42,405 nucleotides of DNA from a virus: the IMG/VR virus record IMGVR_UViG_3300047494_000168, positions 1 through 42,405 of that record. The stretch is one strand, 5' to 3'. The notes beneath the pieces are model-generated. The model had not been told where the DNA came from. It made no database searches and saw only the letters and a list, made by a program, of their open reading frames with translations. The translations under genes were made by a program, and so were the position numbers. Below, piece by piece: positions 3,176 through 42,405 of this stretch; within the stretch, counting starts at the first letter, position 1, and every line of letters starts with the position of its first letter.

Positions 3176-3811
3176 ATGGCTATCCCTGGGTCAAACATCC
3201 GCATCCTTCGACAGCAGCACGGTCTGTCACAGCGCGTCCTCGCCGAGGCCGTGGGCATTGACGTCTCCAACCTCTCCCGCCTGGAGAGTGGCCGGAGCGA
3301 GGGCACGCGGGAGACGATCGAGAAGATCGCCAAAGCGCTGAACGTGACGGTCGGCGTGCTGTACACGGAGGCGGAGAAGGTTGAGGCGGCCGTGCTGCGG
3401 ATGCGCAATGTCGCGGTGCTGAACCCAGAGCAGGCGGCCGCGTGGTCGGGCCCGGACAGCATCGACGCAACGGAGATCGAGCGGTTCCTGCATGTCGAGC
3501 TTCGACGGGCGTCGCGGCACGCGTTTGCTGTGCAACTGGTGGACGACTCGTGTGAGCCGATCTTCCGGCCGGGCGACGATCTGGTCTTTGACCCGGCGAA
3601 GAAGCCTCGGATGGGCAGCTTTGTGCTCGCCCGTGTCAATGAAGGTTCGGTTGCCGTAGGCCAGCTGAGACTGATGGGCGGGGAGCCTGACGGTTCCCAG
3701 GCGTTCGCAGTGGTGCCCCCGGCCCGTGTTTACGCGGCTTTGTCGAGCCGCGAGATCCCCGGCCTGAAGCTGCTGGGGACCCTGGTGGAGAGCCGGCGGT
3801 ACTACGAGTAG
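3176..3811 (+). CDS. cI: CI-like repressor: HTH plus S24-type C-terminal domain
   Basis: 211 residues. N-terminal XRE helix-turn-helix at about residues 7-60 (LSQRVLAEAVGIDVSNLSRL), linker, then a LexA/CI S24 peptidase-like domain. S125 in DDSCEPIFRPGDDL sits where the catalytic serine is expected. The matching lysine (usually in a VK or FK-L segment) is replaced: the segment reads VAVGQLRL. No Ala-Gly or Cys-Gly cleavage pair is evident in the linker. It is therefore likely a stable repressor that does not self-cleave, and induction may need an antirepressor. Start ATG 3176 is favoured over a TTG two codons upstream because of the promoter spacing. The gene lies upstream of, and in the same direction as, the early operon it should repress through the operator at 3853. 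Confidence 0.88.
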   Translation: MAIPGSNIRILRQQHGLSQRVLAEAVGIDVSNLSRLESGRSEGTRETIEKIAKALNVTVGVLYTEAEKVEAAVLRMRNVAVLNPEQAAAWSGPDSIDATEIERFLHVELRRASRHAFAVQLVDDSCEPIFRPGDDLVFDPAKKPRMGSFVLARVNEGSVAVGQLRLMGGEPDGSQAFAVVPPARVYAALSSREIPGLKLLGTLVESRRYYE

Positions 3812-4778: not shown

Positions 4779-6251
4779 ATGAGCTACAAGGACAACGCGG
4801 ACCACCGGAACACGGGCGATGGCGGCTGGTTTTATGCCGAGCATGAGCTTTTCAGCGTGTTTGCGCCGCTGATCGGGTCGGACGGGGTGTCGGTGTACAT
4901 GGCGATGAGCCGGCTGATCCCGCTGGCGGCCGTGGACCCGGACCGGCAAGTGACGGCGCGCGCGGTAGAGGAGGCGAGCCGGGTCTCGCGGTCGCAGGCC
5001 AACCGCAAGATGCAGGAGATCGCGCGGCTGGGGATGGTGACCGAGATCAAGCAGGGAATCAAGCGTCCCTCGGCCTATCACCTGGAGAGCCTGCGAGAGC
5101 TGGCGAAGTTGGGCGTGGCGGAGCTGCAACGTCGTCTCGGTGTCCCCGGTGGAGACAGCGGCGTTCCGGCGGGTGGCAGCGGTGCCAGCGCACACGGCCT
5201 GACGCTGGCCCCGCAAGGCCGCGCAGGGGGCGTGATTGCGTCGATTGCGGCGTCGGCGGAGGTTGCGGCGATGCCGATCTCACCTGCGGCCCCTGGCAGC
5301 GCGGCTGTCCCACCGGGGGACACAGCGGCGAACAAAGGGCGTCTGTCCCAAAAACAGGGTTCCGTGTCCCAGAATCGGGCTTCGGTGTCCCAAAAACAGG
5401 CCTCGGTGTCCCAGAATCGGGGTGCCTATAAGGAAGAAGAAAAAGAAAGAGAAGAAGATCACACCCCCCTACCCCCCAAGGGGGGGGAGTTGGTCCTTCC
5501 CGATCCGGGGGTGCAACCGGGGGAGGCGAACTACGAGCTCAACGTGGGGATCTCGGCGCGGTGGGTGCTGCGGCAGATCGGCGTCTCGAACAGCCGGCTG
5601 GAGGGTGGGCTGGGCAAGGCGCTGACGGCGCGGCAGCACATGGCCGGGCGCGAGCTGCTGGCGGTGACGGCGCAGCTGGCGGTGGCGAGCTACGCGCGGT
5701 ACCAGGCAGCGATGGCGGACGGGCAGCTGCGGTTCGGGCCGTGGTCGCCGGCGAAGTTCTTCGGCGAAGGTCACTGGCTGATGCCGGGGAGCTGGCCGTG
5801 GACGGCGGAGGCGCGTGTGGCGCAGGCCGGCACGGCGCCGGGTCCCAGCGAGGACGAGCGCGAGGCTCAGCGCGCGGCGCAGGTGGCGAAGGTGGTGGAC
5901 TTTCTGCGCGAGAACGCCAGCGAGCTGGACATGCTCGACCTCGGCATGGAGGCCGAGTACGCGGTGCGGCCGGTGATCGAAGGGTTGCGCAAGCTGGCGG
6001 CCGACGTGGTCGCGGACCGGGTGAGCGTGGACGCGGCGTATGTGTTCAGCGCCAACCTGGAGGACCAGCTGATCGCGGCGCTGGTGGACACGGTGCCGCA
6101 GGCGAAGGCAGCAGCCGAGGCGATTGCGGCGCGGGTGCAGACGATGCCCGGCGGCGAGGCCGCCCGCACCGAAGCGGCGAAGACGATGCGCCGCGCGCAG
6201 GTGTCGAAGATTTGCAACACGCCGTACCTGGACCTGCGGTACATGCCGTAG
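4779..6251 (+). CDS. Replication initiator (lambda O-like organisation)
   Basis: 490 residues. Residues about 15-115 form a winged-helix DNA-binding domain typical of phage and plasmid initiators (TARAVEEASRVSRSQANRKM). A long Gly/Ala/Ser-rich linker follows, then the heptad repeat SQKQGSV/SQNRASV (residues about 189-216) encoded by DNA iterons, a charged run (KEEEKEREED), and a C-terminal domain of about 230 residues that would contact the replisome. As in lambda O, the origin lies within the initiator gene, so the protein probably binds its own coding sequence. No helicase loader or helicase gene was recognised nearby, so the C-terminal part may recruit the host helicase. Identification rests on layout and the HTH. 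Confidence 0.75.
   Translation: MSYKDNADHRNTGDGGWFYAEHELFSVFAPLIGSDGVSVYMAMSRLIPLAAVDPDRQVTARAVEEASRVSRSQANRKMQEIARLGMVTEIKQGIKRPSAYHLESLRELAKLGVAELQRRLGVPGGDSGVPAGGSGASAHGLTLAPQGRAGGVIASIAASAEVAAMPISPAAPGSAAVPPGDTAANKGRLSQKQGSVSQNRASVSQKQASVSQNRGAYKEEEKEREEDHTPLPPKGGELVLPDPGVQPGEANYELNVGISARWVLRQIGVSNSRLEGGLGKALTARQHMAGRELLAVTAQLAVASYARYQAAMADGQLRFGPWSPAKFFGEGHWLMPGSWPWTAEARVAQAGTAPGPSEDEREAQRAAQVAKVVDFLRENASELDMLDLGMEAEYAVRPVIEGLRKLAADVVADRVSVDAAYVFSANLEDQLIAALVDTVPQAKAAAEAIAARVQTMPGGEAARTEAAKTMRRAQVSKICNTPYLDLRYMP
5306..5458 (+). other. Candidate replication origin: iterons plus polypurine tract
   Basis: Four direct repeats beginning TGTCCCA start at 5344, 5365, 5386 and 5407, an exact 21-bp period (two helical turns); units 1 and 3 read TGTCCCAAAAACAGG, units 2 and 4 TGTCCCAGAATCGGG. 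An inverted pair TGTCCC/GGGACA (5306-5322) precedes them, and a similar pair lies at 5141-5157. A 29-base all-purine run (5430-5458) follows directly, the only A-rich stretch here and a candidate unwinding element, then a C6-AA-G7 hairpin near 5475. The arrangement copies lambda ori inside gene O. Confidence 0.75.
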
Positions 6252-9103: not shown

Positions 9104-9309
9104 ACCAGCAGATCTCCAGGCGGCAGCCCGAGGGCGTTGGCGATCCGCTCCAGGGTGAGCAGGCCGAGCTCGCGCTTGCCGTTCTCGATGTCCGAGATGT
9201 GGGTCTTGCCGACGCCGGCGGCGACGGCGAGGTCGACCTGCCGCCAGCCCCGCTTCTGGCGCAGCGTGCGGATGCGCTTGCCTACCTGCTGACAGATCCC
9301 CGTGGACAT
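9100..9309 (-). CDS. Small XRE-family repressor
   Basis: 69 residues, essentially a bare helix-turn-helix (RIRTLRQKRGWRQVDLAVAA, then VGKTHISDIENGKREL). Divergent from the methylase gene. A 20-bp palindrome (9329-9348) lies in the short gap and reaches into the -35 position of this gene, the same layout as in the main switch, so the protein probably controls both itself and the methylase. No ribosome-binding site is visible, which fits a leaderless message. Confidence 0.8.
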   Translation of the reverse strand: MSTGICQQVGKRIRTLRQKRGWRQVDLAVAAGVGKTHISDIENGKRELGLLTLERIANALGLPPGDLLV

Positions 9310-9328
9310 GCACCATGTTCATCGGCGC

Positions 9329-9348
9329 GGTTCGCGCATGAGCGAACC
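9329..9348. promoter_or_regulatory. Palindromic operator between XRE gene and methylase
   Basis: GGTTCGC-6 bases-GCGAACC, perfect 7-bp arms. It lies 20-39 bases upstream of the XRE start and just before TTGCCT (9353-9358), which is 36 bases upstream of the methylase ATG at 9389. Confidence 0.7.
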
Positions 9349-9388
9349 TGATTTGCCTGCGCCGGGCTGTGGAGCGACGGTGCGCAGC

Positions 9389-10165
9389 ATGAACGCACCC
9401 TTTGCATGGCCGGGCGGGAAGCGCTGCCTGCTCAAGACGCTGCAGTCCCGCATCCCCGTCCACACCGTATACGTCGAGGTCTTCGCCGGGTCGGCGAAGC
9501 TGCTGTTCGCTAAGGAGCCCTCGAAGGCAGAGGTAATGAACGACCTCAACGGTGACGTCACCAACTTCTTCCGCGTGGCCAAACACCGCGCGGCCGAACT
9601 GGCCGAGCTGCTGGAGCAGGAGGTGGTCCACCCGCAGCGCTTCCGCGACCTGGCCAACGACACCAGCGCGGACGAGCTGTCGCGCGCGCTGCGGTTCGCG
9701 TATCGCACCTGGTACAGCTACGGGGCCAAGGGCGAGCACTTTGCGGCGGCGAGCCTGGTGGAGTCGCTGCGCGGGCAGACGCGCCGGCCGCTGGACACCA
9801 TCCGCGAGCTGCTGACCGTCACGGCGGAACGGCTGCGGCGCGTGCGCATCGAGCAGCGCGACTTCGCCGACCTGATCCGCCGGTTCGATTCGCCGTCGAC
9901 GTTCTTCTACCTGGACCCGCCCTACGTCCATTTCCAGCCGATCGGCCGCTACGACGCGCTGTCGGCAGGGCGACGGGAGGAGCTGTTCGCGGTGCTGGCG
10001 CAGATCCGTGGGACGTTCCTGATGAGCTTTGATAACTGCAGCGAGGTGAGGGAACTGGCGGCCGCGCACGGTATGCGCGTGGAGTTGGTCGAGACCAGGT
10101 ATGGGATTGGCAGCACGAAGGCTTCGCGGGCGACGCTGACCGAGGTGCTGATCAGTGGCCGCTAG
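9389..10165 (+). CDS. dam: D12-class DNA adenine N6-methyltransferase
   Basis: 258 residues. Motif X AWPGGK (residues 6-11), S-adenosylmethionine site EVFAGSAKLLF (about 30-40) and catalytic DPPY (FYLDPPYV) identify a Dam-like D12 adenine methylase; the target is unknown. The start at 9389 (MNAPFAWPGGKR) is chosen because the family begins about ten residues before motif X and TTGCCT sits exactly 36 bases upstream; ATGs at 9311-9338 overlap the operator. Phage methylases protect against restriction or tune promoter and packaging timing. It ends in a CTAG shared with the convergent gene at 10162. Confidence 0.9.
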   Translation: MNAPFAWPGGKRCLLKTLQSRIPVHTVYVEVFAGSAKLLFAKEPSKAEVMNDLNGDVTNFFRVAKHRAAELAELLEQEVVHPQRFRDLANDTSADELSRALRFAYRTWYSYGAKGEHFAAASLVESLRGQTRRPLDTIRELLTVTAERLRRVRIEQRDFADLIRRFDSPSTFFYLDPPYVHFQPIGRYDALSAGRREELFAVLAQIRGTFLMSFDNCSEVRELAAAHGMRVELVETRYGIGSTKASRATLTEVLISGR

Positions 10166-11098: not shown

Positions 11099-11323
11099 AT
11101 GGCCGCACCTTCCAGAGCAGGCGGACGAGCTCCACGGCAGCGTGAGCACCTGCCGCGCAAGAAGAAGAGCTTTCGCATCGACTTCCGCGTCGAGTGCTAT
11201 GAGCGCCTGCGCGAACTTCAGCAGATCCGGCACGATGGGCAGCCGGAATCCCTGGCTGAGGTGGTGGAGCGGTTGATTATGAGCGCGCCGCAGTCATCGA
11301 TGCTGCCCTTTCAGCGGGGGTAA
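11099..11323 (+). CDS. Small basic protein, possible ribbon-helix-helix
   Basis: 74 residues, starting MAAPSRAGGRAPRQREHLPR. The segment KSFRIDFRVECYERLRELQQ followed by an acidic second helix (LAEVVERLIMSA) has the strand-helix-helix rhythm of ribbon-helix-helix DNA-binding proteins. CACAAT lies 7 bases before the ATG, again without a ribosome-binding site, but no good -35 is seen. Function unknown. Confidence 0.55.
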   Translation: MAAPSRAGGRAPRQREHLPRKKKSFRIDFRVECYERLRELQQIRHDGQPESLAEVVERLIMSAPQSSMLPFQRG

Positions 11324-11876
11324 GGCTAGGATTGGCAGCTCCAGATGAGCGCCTCTGGGTACACTGCTTAGCACTTGTGAGAGCGCACCGCAGCCGCGCC
11401 CATGACCTTGCCGCACTTTTGGCAGGTGTAGAGGCGCGTTGGCCGGCCTTGCCGCCGAAGTAGGCTTCGTCGATTTCGACCATGCCCTGCAAATTCACGA
11501 ACTCACCGCCGCAAGCCTCACGGAGACGGTGGAGCATAAACCATGCGGATTTTTGGGTAACACCGATCTCTTTGGCTATCTGCATAGAGGAGATACCTTT
11601 GCGGGCGGTAACAAGCAGGTACATCGCGTAGATCCACTTATGCAGCGGGATGTGCGACCGCTCGAAAATCGTGCCTGTGCGGATAGTGAAATCGAGTTGG
11701 CACTTGTTGCAGCGATAGAAGCCCTCACGCTTGCGGGTGGTGATGCGATCTTGACCGCCGCAGGTAGGGCAGGTGGTGCCTTTAGGCCAGAGACGGCCCT
11801 CAAGATAAATGCGGGCCGTCGATTGGTCGGGGAACATTTGGAAAAGCTGAAAGGTGCTGATAGTGGATTTGCTCAT
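11277..11876 (-). CDS. Truncated IS1595-type transposase, probably frameshifted
   Basis: The first 137 residues match the IS1595 transposase N-terminus: zinc ribbon (CPTCGG and YRCNKC), helix-turn-helix (ISSMQIAKEIGVTQKSAWFM) and the first catalytic Asp in EIDEAYFGGK. The rest of the DDE domain is missing. After the GGK the open frame turns into an Arg/Ala/Ser-rich run that overlaps the gene at 11099. In the -1 frame the sequence instead gives RLYTCQKCGKVMGAAAVRS followed by HKC and a stop at 11368, a plausible zinc finger with no overlap. So the real product may be about 169 residues (11368-11876) after a -1 shift, or the gene may be a decayed fragment. GAGGGG precedes the ATG. No terminal inverted repeats were seen. 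Confidence 0.65.
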   Translation of the reverse strand: MSKSTISTFQLFQMFPDQSTARIYLEGRLWPKGTTCPTCGGQDRITTRKREGFYRCNKCQLDFTIRTGTIFERSHIPLHKWIYAMYLLVTARKGISSMQIAKEIGVTQKSAWFMLHRLREACGGEFVNLQGMVEIDEAYFGGKAGQRASTPAKSAARSWARLRCALTSAKQCTQRRSSGAANPSLTPAERAASMTAARS

Positions 11877-12212: not shown

Positions 12213-12241
12213 AAGGTACTTGAGTCCCGCGCTATTGTCAA
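12213..12241 (-). promoter_or_regulatory. Leftward promoter of 12161-11368 operon
   Basis: Minus-strand TTGACA (12241-12236), 17 bases, TACCTT (12218-12213), with a leader of about 45 bases to the ATG. It lies in an AT-rich patch (12230-12310) that also holds the palindrome TGTTGCAACA (12284-12293), which resembles fused CI half-sites. Confidence 0.65.
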
Positions 12242-41446: not shown

Positions 41447-42091
41447 ATGGCCCGCCCCCGCCCCTGGCTGCCTGATGTGCCGCAGCTGATCCGCACCGTC
41501 GAGCGTTCGAAGCAGTCCCATTTCCCCCGCAAGGACATCCAGAGGATCTTCGCCATCCAGCCGCGCGCGGCCGGCAAGCTGCTCGCGCTCTTCCCCCAGG
41601 TGGAGGGCAGCCTCAACACGCACATGGTCAAGCGCGAGCTGCTGCTGGCGTTTCTGCAGGCGGTGCGCGACGCGCCCGATCCGGACGTCTACCTGCGCGG
41701 CCTGGAAGGGCGGCAGAAGATCAGCCGCAAGCGCCCGCGGGTGCTGGTGATGAAGGACCTGCTGGAGGAGTCGACGCTGGCCACGCTGCCGCGCGGCATC
41801 ACCCTGGAGCGCGGGCGGCTGGTGGTGACGTTCACCAGCGAGCAGGAGCTCGGCAACCACCTGGCCGCGTTCGCTGGCGCGTGGGAGCGGGAGCGCGTCG
41901 AGTTCTTCGAGCGCTACGTGCCGGAGAGCGACGAGGACCGCGAGCGCCAGGCCGCCCTGGAGCTGGAGCGCGAAGACATGCGCCGCATCGCCGCCTACCT
42001 GGCCGAAGCTCAAGCCCCCCGCAAACCCCCGCAAGCAGCGCCGTCCGAAGACACCGGAGACCTCACTGCCCAGGCCTGGGCAGCCAGCTAA
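41447..42091 (+). CDS. HTH-type protein paired with recombinase 2
   Basis: 214 residues from ATG 41447 with GAGGTG 7 bases upstream (ATG 41414 in frame is the alternative). Residues about 5-45 read as a helix-turn-helix (HFPRKDIQRIFAIQPRAAGK), followed by a basic linker (QKISRKRPRVLVMKDLLEES) and a C-terminal domain rich in charged helices (RERQAALELEREDMRRIAAY). Probably a DNA-binding regulator or recombination helper. Divergent from recombinase 2 and lies against the attP region. Family not named with confidence. Confidence 0.65.
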   Translation: MARPRPWLPDVPQLIRTVERSKQSHFPRKDIQRIFAIQPRAAGKLLALFPQVEGSLNTHMVKRELLLAFLQAVRDAPDPDVYLRGLEGRQKISRKRPRVLVMKDLLEESTLATLPRGITLERGRLVVTFTSEQELGNHLAAFAGAWERERVEFFERYVPESDEDRERQAALELEREDMRRIAAYLAEAQAPRKPPQAAPSEDTGDLTAQAWAAS

Positions 42092-42112
42092 CCGGACACC
42101 AACCGGACACCA
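42091..42112 (+). repeat. Arm-type repeats, left side of attP
   Basis: Two adjacent copies of ACCGGACACCA (11-bp period). Core GGACACCA recurs twice on the other side of attP (42310-42317 and 42330-42337), all in the same orientation, as expected for integrase arm sites. Confidence 0.65.
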
Positions 42113-42154
42113 CGCTAAGGAGAACGCCAAAAAACCAATCTATTTCCAACATGC

Positions 42155-42177
42155 TTCGAATCCCCCACTCTCCGCCA
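42155..42177 (+). other. Candidate attP core matching tRNA-Ser 3' end
   Basis: TTCGAATC, CCCC, ACTCTCC, G, CCA: T-loop, T-stem 3' strand, 7-base acceptor 3' strand (partner of GGAGAGT), discriminator G and encoded CCA, the pattern of a bacterial tRNA-Ser 3' end. The 5' T-stem (CATGC instead of GGGGG) and the rest of the tRNA are absent, so this is the identity block that rebuilds the host gene upon integration. Confidence 0.75.
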
Positions 42178-42218
42178 TAACATTTGCTCATCGCCCGCAG
42201 CCATGCTGGAATCGCTCG

Positions 42219-42241
42219 AACCCCGCTCCTGTAGCGGGGTT
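42219..42241 (+). terminator. Hairpin between attP and integrase
   Basis: AACCCCGCT, loop CCTGT, AGCGGGGTT, then a short T-run. Typical intrinsic-terminator stem; it would end transcription entering the integrase region or the tRNA transcript after integration. Confidence 0.65.
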
Positions 42242-42255
42242 TGGCGTTGGTGGCC

Positions 42256-42285
42256 TCGTCCGCTTTCGTCCGCTTTCGTCCGCTC
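42256..42285 (+). repeat. Three 10-bp tandem repeats near integrase
   Basis: TCGTCCGCTT twice, then TCGTCCGCTC. Helical-turn spacing upstream of the integrase; may bind Int, Xis or a host protein. Confidence 0.6.
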
Positions 42286-42405
42286 TCTCCGCTCCTGTTA
42301 CGCTGATACGGACACCAAAAGCAGGAGCTGGACACCATGGCTGCGGTCCCCAATGTGCTGCGCAAGGTCAAGGTCGATGGAGCCTGGAAGATGCTGCCCG
42401 TCGCC
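42279..42405. repeat. Right copy of 127-bp terminal direct repeat
   Basis: Identical to 1-127; contains the integrase promoter region, two GGACACCA sites and the first 23 codons of the integrase gene (ATG at 42337). Confidence 0.95.

Follow-up and report, generated by a model that had tools for sequence, protein, structure and literature searches.

In lambda, dimers of the O protein bind the iterons of the origin, the adjacent AT-rich tract is opened, and transcription activates the process (PMC5043065, PMC6022878, PMC3349717, PMC7466680). The lambda record contains four iterons with spacings of 20, 24 and 23, followed by a purine-rich AT tract and then by a 28-bp inverted repeat. Two other groups of initiators invite comparison: the HTH_36-type proteins named 'replication protein O' in enterobacterial and Mesorhizobium phages (for example KpF5, YeP1, phiNP and vB_MseS-P1), and the RepA_N plasmid initiators, such as pSK41 RepA, in which an iteron origin lies inside the rep gene.

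The DNA analyzed here, referred to as the window, is the whole 42,405 bp of IMG/VR virus record IMGVR_UViG_3300047494_000168, in which a gene scan identified an integrase, a CI-like repressor, a methyltransferase and a GpA-type terminase, and which is therefore assigned to a temperate tailed phage. Its initiator gene lies in the early region and adjoins the CI-like repressor gene, and from the sequence comparisons below it is very probable that the phage carries a lambda-O-type intragenic theta origin inside this gene, whose product belongs to a divergent family.

Comparison with described initiators

The window shares with the lambda origin, and with the O genes of Stx phages, an intragenic position and four iterons that recur about every 20 bp and show TCCC...GGG symmetry (PMC3349717, PMC6022878, PMC7466680). 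Also shared with lambda are a purine-rich AT tract directly 3' of the iterons with an inverted repeat next (PMC3349717, PMC6022878), and the joining of N-terminal DNA-binding and C-terminal domains by an iteron-coded linker (PMC3349717, PMC6022878, PMC7466680). The window differs from lambda, however, in its TGTCCC half-site and exact 21-bp period, in the C/G block that replaces lambda's inverted repeat, and in the sequence of the C-terminal domain of its initiator; a P gene was not found, and no match to the lambda O family profile (PF04492, Phage_rep_O) was obtained in the window. An earlier sequence-only reading had proposed a lambda-O-like organization around an initiator not obviously related to that of lambda, and both proposals are supported, in that the layout recurs in divergent homologues whose DNA motifs occupy different reading frames and the protein has no detectable relation to lambda O. 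As far as anatomy tells, the window origin works like that of lambda O, but its initiator falls outside the lambda O family proper.

HTH_36-type O proteins share with the window initiator a winged helix followed by linker repeats, whereas the N-terminal subfamily of the window protein is a different one, with a profile match over only 50 columns. HTH_36-like members from Acidobacteriota (L013 and L020) have both the KFFG C-terminal domain and the C/G block in common with the window family. For the RepA_N plasmid initiators, the Rep N-terminal winged helix is among the best PDB matches (5kbj, 4pql), but the window presents a phage rather than a plasmid context and another C-terminal domain; no RepA_N Pfam match was found at E<=1 for the window protein, and none among the family hits of its homologues.

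Organization of the repeat region

Every element of the proposed origin at 5141-5487 is contained in the coding sequence 4779-6251 (Table 1), as had been claimed from the sequence alone, and the claimed four iterons and polypurine run were likewise recovered: the array, with a spacing of exactly 21 bp, had the top score (98) among 63 tandem-repeat rows of the window, and the next longest purine run is 14 bases. Of the inverted TGTCCC copies that were said to flank the iterons, one is exact and the other is only a near copy. The C6-TA-C6-AA-G8 block falls inside the interval that the same reading had assigned to the origin, where it went unmentioned. The A-rich, T-poor tract between iterons and block is presumed to be the unwinding element.

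Table 1. Coordinates of the initiator gene, its domains, the repeat region and the upstream neighbor in the window
Feature	Coordinates	Strand	Evidence or remark
CI-like repressor gene	3176..3811	+	upstream neighbor of initiator gene
Initiator gene, 490 aa (P0001)	4779..6251	+	open frame; homologues with identical domain order
N-terminal winged-helix domain, residues 16-120, recognition helix SRSQANRKMQEI	4824..5138	+	AlphaFold2, PDB fold matches
Imperfect 17-bp dyad TGTCCCCGGTGGAGACA	5141..5157	+	sequence; near inverted copy GAGACA at 5152-5157
17-bp dyad TGTCCC-ACCGG-GGGACA	5306..5322	+	sequence; exact inverted copy at 5317-5322
Iteron 1	5344..5364	+	sequence, tandem-repeat scan
Iteron 2	5365..5385	+	sequence, tandem-repeat scan
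Iteron 3	5386..5406	+	sequence, tandem-repeat scan
Iteron 4	5407..5427	+	sequence, tandem-repeat scan
A-rich, T-poor tract, GC 0.31 in a gene of 0.69; lowest-GC 36 bp of gene	5426..5461	+	composition
29-base polypurine run, longest in window	5430..5458	+	run-length scan
C/G block CCCCCC-TA-CCCCCC-AA-GGGGGGGG (C6-TA-C6-AA-G8)	5464..5487	+	sequence
C-terminal helical domain with KFFGEGHW motif, residues 246-350	5514..5828	+	conserved alignment; AlphaFold2
C-terminal extension	5829..6248	+	missing from most homologues

TGTCCC ranks first among the window's 6-mers for clustering, ahead of CCCCCC, which peaks just downstream. Counted on both strands, TGTCCC occurs 8 times in the 42,405 bp where shuffles lead one to expect 23.5, and seven of the eight copies fall at 5141-5412, with one in all the remaining window; within the initiator ORF they comprise six forward cores and one inverted core in 272 bp, distributed over two reading frames. 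Synonymous shuffles that keep the protein and its codon usage yielded a mean of 1.3 TGTCCC and a maximum of 6, so that none of 20,000 reached the 7 observed.

Phage GC skew tends to track gene direction. The turning point of cumulative GC skew that had been anticipated at the origin is absent, the skew climbing through 5.3 kb to a maximum at about 13.5 kb, and given that tendency the missing turn, although it lends the site no support, is not counted against the origin. No DnaA boxes were found near the origin region.

The initiator protein and its homologues

The window initiator had no family match at threshold in Pfam, PHROG or NCBIfam, showing only weak TrmB/MarR Pfam matches in its N-terminal winged helix, and tblastn with the full protein returned no match in 50,697 phage and 72,556 plasmid records. 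AlphaFold2 modeled the winged helix (about residues 20-120, blocks mostly at pLDDT 77-95) and a helical C-terminal domain (249-350) confidently, and the latter, modeled alone, reached a pLDDT of 92.6, while the linker at residues 124-236, including the iteron-coded part, is predicted to be disordered (pLDDT <50). Fold searches of the PDB with the N-terminal domain returned winged helices, including those of RepA (Rep-type initiators) and the N-terminal domains of DnaD, as well as TubR-like partition proteins; these matches carry little weight because the fold is common. For the C-terminal domain no significant PDB match emerged (none at E <0.6, best Z 3.8), which does not establish a new fold. 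This KFFG domain is presumed to be the helicase-recruiting part.

Acidobacteriota genomes and IMG/VR contigs yielded eleven homologues. Scans of IMG/VR with the single protein or with its domains recovered at most one relative; a degenerate DNA pattern for the KFFGEGHW motif retrieved the IMG/VR relatives, a profile of the KFFGEGHW region led to a locus of Acidicapsa dinghuensis (Acidobacteriota) and to matches in 7 of 396 genomes of the phylum, and profiles of the N-terminal domain added further members. The family alignment comprises 12 proteins that share the winged-helix type of the window initiator, the window included, 10 of them full-length. A wider winged-helix search matched 103 of 399, a figure that is not a family count because, apart from five strong family members, the matches were mostly weak. 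One of the matches in the Acidobacteriota genomes, L025, is an orthologue whose alignment with the window protein (36% identity, 1e-52) spans both domains and the linker, and it carries the same repeats at a 21-bp period, the purine tract and the C/G block. In all 12 members the winged helix is followed by TGTC-N-C or related repeats in several frames and, directly after these, by the 36-bp stretch with the lowest GC content in the coding sequence.

Up to three of the 12 members matched O-like PHROGs (E 1e-4 to 1e-2), the window protein itself giving no match, and HTH_36 relatives with the same C-terminal domain matched 'replication initiation O-like' PHROGs strongly. On this sequence evidence the window initiator is linked to O-like families through intermediates. 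These matches bear on an improbable alternative in which the repeats are operator sites where a transcription regulator, encoded by the gene itself, binds for operon control, with no replication start: the N-terminal fold is indeed common to transcription regulators and the 17-bp dyads resemble operator sites, but against such a role stand the O-like PHROG matches of homologues, the conserved C-terminal domain, and the fixed position of an AT-rich purine tract and a C/G block after repeats that sit mid-gene and not at a promoter.

The gene neighborhood speaks to a still less probable alternative, that the region serves another DNA transaction, for example the partitioning of a prophage maintained outside the chromosome or the start of packaging. 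The TubR-like helices among the fold matches would fit partition, but no ParA- or TubZ-type partner was found among the neighboring ORFs scanned and an integrase is present; the terminase genes lie 8 kb from the origin region, and the PHROGs matched by homologues are replication families. A homologue of the CI-like repressor stands upstream of the initiator in three related Acidobacteriota loci (L107-L109), as it does in the window, and because this order is held in common and relatives occur in Acidobacteriota genomes, the host is probably an acidobacterium.

Frame-independent conservation of the proposed origin DNA

The same DNA core recurs in homologues that encode different peptides, and across the family the C blocks fall in all three reading frames. 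Because repeat cores and C blocks occupy different frames both within and between genes, the comparison of sequences shows that selection in this region is for the DNA sequence itself and not for the peptide. The heptad repeat previously read from the protein is a by-product within a predicted-disordered linker and not a coiled coil, and the cores span two frames. That the repeats are a peptide-level feature or slippage product of this linker, with no role as DNA sites, is highly improbable, since their tandem, in-frame arrangement and the low AlphaFold2 confidence of the linker are outweighed by cores in two frames and both orientations within one gene, a core count that synonymous shuffles never attain, and the recurrence of the core over different peptides.

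The C/G block, in the form C3-7 ... C4-6 ... G4-8, begins 0-10 bp past the tract in 10 of 10 full-length members, the window included. It is also present in L013 and L020, the Acidobacteriota relatives with a different winged helix, and in looser forms in L005 and L022; KpF5, vB_MseS-P1 and lambda yielded no such block. Among twelve block-bearing genes the block arises in 0.8-5.8% of synonymous shuffles per gene, figures that serve as a guide and not a test because the pattern was picked after the sequences had been seen. The hairpin of the window's block is no stabler than its shuffles (z -0.13), which keep the C and G runs and so account for this result, while four homologues score better (z -2.5 to -3.3). 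In 8 of 10 genomes, CCCCCWACCCCC matched at only a few sites across the genome, and the initiator gene was one of them. As a genome-wide origin marker, CCCCCWACCCCC alone was rejected, being as rare as the control, with four other sites that were read proving to be non-initiator genes.

Two longer tandem arrays were noted in relatives. The one in L008 (2891-3081) has four copies, at 98%, of a 48-bp unit that takes in the G block of the C/G element; the one in L013 (2401-2741) has 4.4 copies, at 96%, of a 78-bp unit and lies in an open frame near the Acidicapsa prophage initiator.

Apparent covariation of repeat and recognition helix

Half-sites were read in the 280 bp preceding the tract and gave the consensus TGTC-N-C, whose fifth base varies among lineages; 17-bp dyads of the form TGTCNC-N5-GNGACA occur in several family members. 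N is C in the window and in L025, L029, L030, L008 and L032, where the recognition helix reads S[RK]S (L025 and L029 additionally contain TATCCC), and G in L031, L034 and L035, where it reads S[KV]D. N is A in L013, L020, L022 and L063, and T in L012 and mostly so in L033; the repeats of L036 and L037 are TTTCTC. At helix position 3, S is found mostly with C, D with G and R mostly with A. The fifth repeat base apparently changes together with the recognition helix across lineages. Such a pairing is consistent with reading of the repeat by the winged helix but is suggestive only, because the groups are few and related by descent.

A bolder reading, which we regard as possible but rather unlikely, is that the C/G block constitutes a third kind of origin module, not described before, which serves two different classes of Acidobacteriota-phage initiator as a signal for priming or for entry of the host replisome, and that the fifth base of TGTC-N-C is an interchangeable letter from which the recognition helix reads its specificity. 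Were the letter so read, it would keep the origins of related phages apart.

Proposed mechanism and significance

For a lambda-O-type origin within the initiator gene, we propose that the winged-helix domain would bind TGTCCC half-sites in the 17-bp dyads and in the four iterons, which the 21-bp period would place on one face of the helix. The nucleoprotein assembly, together with negative supercoiling and transcription through the gene, would then open the A-rich, T-poor tract 3' of the iterons. The last two steps are the weakest. The KFFG C-terminal domain may recruit the host replicative helicase, a role proposed because P, DnaC and DnaB were not detected in the phage (no PF06992, PF01695 or PF03796 gene in the window), and the C/G block, at the place of lambda's inverted repeat, may mark the end of the opened region or form a hairpin for priming or loading.

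Such an origin would extend the lambda type of intragenic origin to a phage initiator family unrecognized at threshold by the profile libraries searched, and a literature search found no characterized phage replicon for Acidobacteriota. The locus is a candidate compact replicon of about 1.5 kb for vectors, and its relatives offer a natural series of origin-recognition variants in which changes in DNA site and protein can be paired. Conservation independent of reading frame may also provide a simple way to spot origins hidden in coding sequence.

Elsewhere in the window, a Dam-like N6-adenine methyltransferase is encoded at 9302-10165 (+), and a GATC occurs at 5457, at the 3' end of the purine run; phages YeP1, phiNP and KpF5 have a DNA methylase at or just past the O-like gene. 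An IS1595-like transposase at 11277-11876 (-) retains its zinc ribbon and is probably a broken copy, because its DDE domain match extends over only 19 residues. The lowest-GC 40 bp of the window lies near it, at 12233, and three short tandem arrays with periods of 10, 11 and 10 are located by the right end, at 42016-42293.
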